Assembly: GCA_030538215.1 (NCBI GenBank)
Contig: JAUNUM010000003.1
Span: forward strand, 1-64,000
Direction: 5' to 3'
Length of the DNA stretch: 64,000 nt
Source of the DNA: Bacteroidia bacterium
GTDB taxonomy: Bacteria > Bacteroidota > Bacteroidia > Bacteroidales > Dysgonomonadaceae
Made by a program: the position numbers and the translations under genes
Shown here: piece after piece, positions 7,356-53,725 of the stretch
Layout: each line of letters starts with the position of its first letter
How positions within the stretch are numbered: the first letter of the stretch is position 1
The notes under the pieces: model-generated
What the model saw: only the letters and a program-made list of their open reading frames with translations
Told to the model about the DNA's origin: nothing
Database searches by the model: none

Positions 7356-7393
7356 TCTTTATTGGGTAAAGCGAGTTCCGACTCACTTTATTG

Positions 7394-7419
7394 GGAGACG
7401 TAAAGCATTGCGTCTCTAC
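7394..7419. repeat. GAGACG...CGTCTC palindromic element
   Basis: GAGACG (7395-7400) and CGTCTC (7411-7416) flank TAAAGCATTG. It belongs to the same short family as 275-321, 32169-32192 and 53027-53085, and sits between the clpC stop and its terminator. Confidence 0.6.
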
Positions 7420-32162: not shown

Positions 32163-32168
32163 ATTTTG

Positions 32169-32192
32169 TAGAGACGCAATGCATTGCGTCTG
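32169..32192. repeat. GTAGAGACG palindrome between groES and groEL
   Basis: GTAGAGACGCAATGCATTGCGTC is a near-perfect palindrome around ATGCAT, inside the 66-base gap of the chaperonin operon. It can fold into a stem of up to nine base pairs in the transcript. Same family as 7394-7419. Confidence 0.65.
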
Positions 32193-52579: not shown

Positions 52580-53725
52580 ATGAAAATCCTTGCCGACACA
52601 CATATCCCATATCTAAAAGGCGTAGCCGAGCAATTTGGTAAAGTAGAATATTTGCCCGGAAATCAATTCAAGAAAGAGACCATTAAAGAGAAAGATGCGC
52701 TGATAGTACGAACAGTAACACATTTTGACGAAGAAATTCTTTCAGGAAGCAGCGTAAAGCTTATTTGCTCAGCTACTATTGGTTACGATCATATCGATAC
52801 TGAGTATTGTGATTCACACAACATTGCTTGGCGTACCGCACCCGGTTGTAATGCCAATTCTGTGGAACAATATGTTACAGCTTCGCTGTTGTATTTGGAA
52901 GATAAATACAATTTTGATTTAAAAGAAAAAACTATCGGAATTGTGGGTGTGGGAAATGTAGGTAGTAAAGTGGAAGTGGCTTGCAGGAAGTTAGGAGTGC
53001 GTGTGCTATTAAATGACCCTCCGCTTGTAGAGACGATGCATGCATTGTCTTTTACAAATAAGACGGGGCACATTTCGTCTTTACAGCATCGATTTGTAGA
53101 TTTAGAAACAATAAAACGAGAATCAGATATTGTCACTTTTCACGTTCCATTAACTAAAACCGGAAAACACAAAACCTATCATTTAGCAGACAATTATTTT
53201 TTTGATACATTGGGTAAAAAACCATTCATTATTAATTCATGCCGTGGGAGTGTGGTGGATAATCGGGCGTTGAAAAAAGCCATTCGGAGTGAAAAGATTT
53301 CCGGTACAGTTGTTGACTGCTGGGAAAACGAACCGAATATCGATACCGAATTACTGCAAATGGTTGACATTGCTACACCGCACATTGCCGGATATTCTGC
53401 CGACGGCAAATGGACGGCCAGCAAAATGAGTATCGAAAACTTAAAAGACTTTTTTCAATTCAACGTTACTCCTAAGTTTCAAGAACTGCCGCCGCCACTA
53501 TATCCGGTTATAGATTTACGTGAAATACCTGTTGAAAAACAATTAGCTTATGCTGTTTGGCAAACCTATAATCCAATGGTTGAGACGAAAAACTTAAAAG
53601 AAAATCCCGAAAAATTTTATTGGTTTCGCTCCAATTATCCGTTACGTCGGGAATACGGAGCATATAAAATAAGTGCAGCGGATACATTGGTTTCCGAAGT
53701 ACTGAAAAAACTGGGGTTTATGTAA
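52580..53725 (+). CDS. pdxB: 4-phosphoerythronate dehydrogenase PdxB
   Basis: A 381-residue D-2-hydroxyacid dehydrogenase of pyridoxal phosphate synthesis. Evidence: ADTHIPYLKGVAEQFGKVEYLPG at the start, NAD loop GIVGVGNVGSKVEVACRKLG at about 121-140, catalytic arginine in INSCRGSVVDNRAL, glutamate in CWENEPNID, and histidine in ATPHIAGYSADGKWTASKMS, the last being typical of PdxB. Between VLLNDPP and FVDLETI lies an extra loop, LVETMHALSFTNKTGHISSL plus QHR, encoded exactly by a dispersed palindromic repeat (53027-53085) that keeps the frame. The loop falls after the NAD-binding beta-2 strand, where insertions may be tolerated. Confidence 0.92.
   Translation: MKILADTHIPYLKGVAEQFGKVEYLPGNQFKKETIKEKDALIVRTVTHFDEEILSGSSVKLICSATIGYDHIDTEYCDSHNIAWRTAPGCNANSVEQYVTASLLYLEDKYNFDLKEKTIGIVGVGNVGSKVEVACRKLGVRVLLNDPPLVETMHALSFTNKTGHISSLQHRFVDLETIKRESDIVTFHVPLTKTGKHKTYHLADNYFFDTLGKKPFIINSCRGSVVDNRALKKAIRSEKISGTVVDCWENEPNIDTELLQMVDIATPHIAGYSADGKWTASKMSIENLKDFFQFNVTPKFQELPPPLYPVIDLREIPVEKQLAYAVWQTYNPMVETKNLKENPEKFYWFRSNYPLRREYGAYKISAADTLVSEVLKKLGFM
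53027..53085. repeat. Palindromic repeat inside pdxB
   Basis: GTAGAGACG (53027-53035) and CGTCTTTAC (53076-53084) bound two tandem imperfect palindromes: GTAGAGACGATGCATGCATTGTCTTTTAC and AAGACG...CGTCTT. It belongs to the family at 275-321, 7394-7419 and 32169-32192, which are otherwise intergenic. The reading frame stays open through it. Confidence 0.75.

Follow-up and report, generated by a model that had tools for sequence, protein, structure and literature searches.

The window analyzed here (64 kb, part of contig C20 of a 2.92-Mb MAG from the Dysgonomonadaceae) contains pdxB, the gene for 4-phosphoerythronate dehydrogenase, whose reading frame runs through one palindromic repeat of the REP kind and the remains of a second. 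The features concerned, in window coordinates, are:

52580–53725, plus strand: pdxB, 4-phosphoerythronate dehydrogenase, 381 aa, intact (ORF; NCBIfam PRK00257, E 1e-126; predicted fold).
53024–53092, plus strand: PdxB variable loop, residues 149–171, between NDPP and FVDL (relatives' alignment; pLDDT dip).
53027–53055, no strand assigned: REP unit 1, slightly decayed, core ATGCATGCAT, coding for residues 150–159 (VETMHALSFT; covariance model).
53057–53084, no strand assigned: REP unit 2, badly decayed (covariance model, E 0.2; adjoins unit 1).
275–321, no strand assigned: 47-bp relative, a long variant sharing the ends (also present on C70, C83, and C160).
7393–7419, no strand assigned: decayed REP copy (covariance model, E 4e-5; no ORF of at least 70 aa over it).
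32168–32191, no strand assigned: decayed REP copy, core CAATGCATTG (covariance model, E 2e-4 for 32172–32191).

The predicted fold of PdxB matches two solved PdxB enzymes, 3oet (Z 46.1) and 2o4c (Z 44.8), and the ORF stays open through both units. An earlier note on this DNA had described a single 59-base block, a copy of a dispersed palindrome inserted in frame into pdxB, with relatives at three other places in the window. The in-frame palindrome copy holds up (E = 9e-5 for unit 1 over the whole window), as do the three relatives, the first being the 47-bp variant and the other two decayed. The single block, however, resolves into two abutting 28-bp units, the second of which is seen in this genome only. 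Specifically, unit 1 reads GTAGAGACG ATGCATGCAT TGTCTTTTAC—a 28-bp unit with one extra T—and unit 2, starting 1 nt past it, reads AATAAGACG GGGCACATTT CGTCTTTAC. The pdxB copy keeps its GTAG end, while its other end is TTAC, with one extra base.

The dispersed family to which these copies belong has the consensus layout GTAGAGACG-N10-CGTCTCTAC and about 80 copies in the genome. Its strict form, GTAGAGACGN{6,14}CGTCTCTAC, a pattern that leaves the inner cores free, gives 42 matches in this genome (reversed-pattern control, 0) and is present in 20 of 61 genomes from the genus, family, and order. Among the papers listed by a literature search with GTAGAGACG, none was relevant. As the bases flanking the copies are little conserved, the unit is 28 bp. 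The outer nine pairs of its stem are nearly invariant and the inner five covary, and these joint changes therefore divide the family into subfamilies by core. Both partners have changed at 8 pairs of the whole stem, with 51 double-changed cells against 14.4 in shuffles—a count that selection explains in part, because most rows were picked by their ends and copies had to pass a loose threshold of overall pairing to be collected. Gene context was read at 83 located places, most of them from a covariance model built on 23 genomic copies with the pdxB copy excluded; the stretches examined were all or parts of the contigs with known repeats, C1, the beginning of C2, and the surroundings of further matches. 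Coding sequence is strongly avoided by the repeat, since 62 of the 83 places lie in no ORF of at least 100 aa. One of the palindrome's three frames contains a stop codon; coding copies make use of both others (VETxxxxSL and RDxxxxxVST). Longer repeats with GTAGAGACG ends and other sequence at the centre were seen at 275–321 of the window and at G000:C151:17617–17658, the latter enclosing TCCCGATAGATATCGGGA, itself palindromic, which gives the impression of a repeat inserted into a repeat.

At least five RAYT genes are present in the genome (C31, C59, C29, C52, and C125), as found by a search with the C31 protein; PF01797 alone returned only IS200-like genes and missed the RAYTs. NCBIfam NF047646 (REP-associated tyrosine transposase) recognises the proteins of C31 and C59, with scores under its cut-off. 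These genes have REPs inside or beside them, and each of the five carries a REP or REP remnant within its own reading frame, shortly past the MPNHIH motif. The internal core is of the CACGGCCGTG type in C31, CGGCATGCCA (among the genome's commonest cores) in C59, and GATGCGTGCATC in C29, with a 29-bp variant in C52 and C125; the reading frame of C125 seems to be interrupted past its repeat region. The pdxB core (GATGCRTGCATC) recurs in frame in the loop of the C29 RAYT itself—a core found otherwise only at C64:31802 within the stretches examined—and that loop follows the order seen in this pdxB, an ATGC-core unit and then a TAAGACGG unit. The motifs NHIH and NNP resemble the subclass 2.4 table of PMC6006769, and the motif, the sub-cut-off NF047646 match, and the self-carried REP make these RAYTs putative members of that subclass. 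The self-carried REP extends beyond the GTAGAGACG family, because RAYTs in other genomes (L206, L208, L209, L217) carry other in-frame repeats, of the GTAGGGGCGAAT type, coding for VGANDYSPL and the like (VGAGLAPAR in L209). At L205 (G001:C303:98-125, 357-384), the internal and flanking repeats of a RAYT share the core TTGCRYGCAA, a pattern consistent with joint change of RAYT and REP.

Other coding copies, for which the earlier note had proposed a search, were found. Convincing in-frame copies besides that in pdxB lie in pbpC (C31:7601), in an alpha-2-macroglobulin gene (C31:5254), and in the RAYTs on C31, C59, and C29; further ones sit in two apparently secreted C18 proteins that resemble each other in sequence (one matching a T9SS tail), in the C-terminal tail of a protein taken as ATP-binding from its sequence only (C52:8480), and in a lipoprotein-like N-terminus (C151:17171). 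Several other ORFs over repeats are probably upstream extensions (C31:6172, C12, C15, C64) or spurious, and are left out of this tally. Alpha-2-macroglobulin contains the REP in this genome and a decayed version of it in G005, and the gene has a shorter, TQSxxE-type loop in G002, G006, G007, G008, and G009. This gene and pbpC adjoin each other directly in G002, G007, and other genomes; a RAYT gene sits between them here (L156, G000:C31:4171-8200), and a RAYT lies at the same place in a genome of another family (L196, G038:C3:48675-52789).

In pbpC, one loop before GAAWLT (L233, L234, L235, L236, L242) holds different REP cores across the genus: GTGCACGCAC in this genome (repeat ATAAAGACGGTGCACGCACCGTCTCTAC), CGATTAATCG in G007 and G001 (GATTAATC type, RDAINRVST), ACACGGCCGTGT in G005, and GGTGCACGGCCGTGCGCC in G006 (repeat GTAAAGGTGCACGGCCGTGCGCCTTTAC). 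Loop length is nearly constant despite the four different cores, and the loop of G002, G008, and G009 is perhaps a REP relic. G007 has more copies with its pbpC core on C35 and C60; a pattern search found no second copy with the respective core in G005 or G006. The sequences thus show one pbpC loop re-used by different REPs. A broader proposition, which we find rather unlikely, is that certain loops repeatedly serve as landing places at which one REP takes over from another. If this were true, RAYTs, or repair at their cuts, would swap REP for REP or for loop, and a transposase would keep renewing the sequence of some protein loops; and if the pbpC pattern is real turnover, the way in which REPs move, which we regard as an open matter for most RAYTs, could be tested directly by comparing close strains.

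Unit 1 is not unique to this genome, since three relatives (G005, G007, and G018) carry it at the same pdxB codon, with loop repeats LVEMMYASSLSRQ, LVETMRASSSFRP, and LVETMHASSQSRN, respectively. The four copies share one core and all begin exactly one codon (CTT) past the same proline. The change to the loop was not a simple addition. The loop has 13 residues in the three carriers of unit 1 only and 23 here, against 11–17 residues of unrelated charged sequence (REEREVGEKPGVKGKTA and similar) in carrier-free congeners and 9–12 in other family members; a family-wide sequence pattern had 0 of 101 matches, but that pattern misses even known carriers, so its zero carries no information. Because 13 residues compare with 11–17, unit 1 replaced loop sequence of like length and did not lengthen the loop; the 23-residue length is due to unit 2 only. 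The earlier note is right in that the loop is shorter in other PdxBs.

The repeat in pdxB is eroding. Of 14 pairs, 10 are left in this genome, 7 in G005, 9 in G007, and 12 in G018, whose less decayed copy is 2 of 28 bases off consensus, and repeat codons among the carriers have undergone replacement as well as silent changes, not mainly silent ones. As pairing erodes in all four copies, the repeat looks like a drifting passenger. Being common to four species and decaying, the pdxB copy alone does not demonstrate that these palindromes move, as had been claimed for it; movement is better supported by the dispersed family, the repeat-free alpha-2-macroglobulin loop in congeners, and the differing pbpC cores.

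We consider it probable that the pdxB block is an intragenic double-foot REP, spread by RAYTs, that displaced loop sequence and now drifts as a passenger. The resident RAYT transposases (HuH/Y1 single-strand nucleases) would spread the non-autonomous palindrome, and unit 1 would have come into a surface loop of PdxB while this genus and its near relative were evolving, displacing loop sequence of similar length; in this lineage a second unit lies beside unit 1. The copy would now be a passenger, no function in PdxB having been detected. Unit 1 could persist because two of its three frames are stop-free and the loop tolerates almost any sequence. The data establish the repeat family with its unit boundaries and copy number, its distribution among relatives, the place of the loop, and resident RAYTs that share the core. 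Placement of the pdxB unit by a RAYT is most likely; that RAYTs moved this repeat, that events took this order, and that the repeat is neutral are what we infer from the patterns above. Counting against this explanation are that unit 1 gave no net lengthening, unlike a plain insertion, and that the carriers fail to group together on a PdxB tree.

On that tree, built without the loop, the carriers are not a clade (AU p = 0.00018, for a group chosen by its trait), so a single old insertion requires losses or gene exchange. This result would also suit independent hits on the pdxB loop by the same REP subfamily in several lineages, and loop re-use does occur, as the pbpC cores of different species illustrate. 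We nevertheless lean against independent hits, although they keep a real share of the probability: the four copies have the same core and the same exact start, and the non-carrier nested among the carriers, G001, points elsewhere. Its pdxB is distant and lies on a 3.4-kb contig (C85, 3421 bp; L020), whereas its pbpC (L235) is nearly identical to that of G007, a combination suggestive of gene exchange or a misbinned contig. Gene exchange is likely, and both a single gain with loss or exchange and repeated gain are possible for pdxB.

A rival reading is that the REP-encoded residues have been recruited for PdxB function or regulation. In the family alignment, the variable loop comes after an invariant Asp146-Pro147, the aspartate presumably lying at the NAD ribose, as is general for the 2-hydroxyacid dehydrogenase fold. 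The AlphaFold model has an overall pLDDT of 93.6, with 81 for residues 151–160 and 68 for residues 161–170; in it, helix 147–157 runs into unit 1 and unit 2 is mostly loop. Variability and low model confidence together suggest that the loop is surface-exposed. Recruitment could draw on this extended helix and on the frame kept open in four species, but it is improbable given that replacement changes accompany silent ones in the repeat codons, that model confidence is at its lowest in the loop, and that the loop varies freely in length and sequence across the PdxB family. The last observation also disposes of a family-wide conserved loop, which the earlier note had named as a threat to its own reading; the loop differs among relatives.

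Two further explanations do without RAYTs. Five IS200-like Y1 transposase genes in the genome (L048–L052) could suggest an IS200/IS605 element mobilized by its own TnpA, with the repeats as its ends or short remnants, yet the flanks of these five genes contain no paired GTAGAGACG motif, whereas RAYT genes do have such repeats beside and inside them, which makes this origin very improbable. A chance palindrome-like stretch in an ordinary variable loop, for which one might cite unit 2 (not significant alone, E 0.2), has a negligible probability against the E value of unit 1 over the whole window and the 12 of 14 pairs and near-consensus sequence of the G018 copy.

In-frame palindromes have precedents. 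GTAG and CGTC REPs inside unrelated genes, with the frame kept and likely in flexible loops or linkers, were described in 2013 (PMC3733652), in a paper that reports no dedicated transposase for the CGTC elements. The units here are likewise short palindromes in genes of known function that keep the frame, but the sequence family differs, and the main text of that paper names Bacteroidetes once, without GTAGAGAC. The Rickettsia palindromic elements (RPE), as cited there, also lie in frame in genes for working proteins; RPE, however, are CGTC-tagged at one end, whereas the units here are GTAG/CTAC-ended, co-occur with RAYTs, and have CGTC within the arm, not at the terminus. The closest match is the double-foot REP, for which in-frame copies inside tnpA_REP genes were reported as a special feature of subclass 2.4 (PMC6006769, 2018). 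Like those Bacteroidetes repeats, whose two ends are GTAG and its reverse complement CTAC, our family fits the 5′ GT[AG]G/3′ C[TC]AC layout around a stem (GTAG…CTAC, 28 bp, covarying), occurs in many copies mainly outside genes, and accompanies RAYTs with flanking and in-frame internal REPs (C31, C29, C59, C52, C125); the copy here differs in lying in pdxB, decayed and common to several species. The double-foot kind is thus already described, and the pdxB copy is a new example of a known phenomenon—a clear case in Bacteroidales, with carriers and non-carriers, of mobile palindromes turned protein sequence, and one that ties the inserted copy to a resident transposase gene with the same core.
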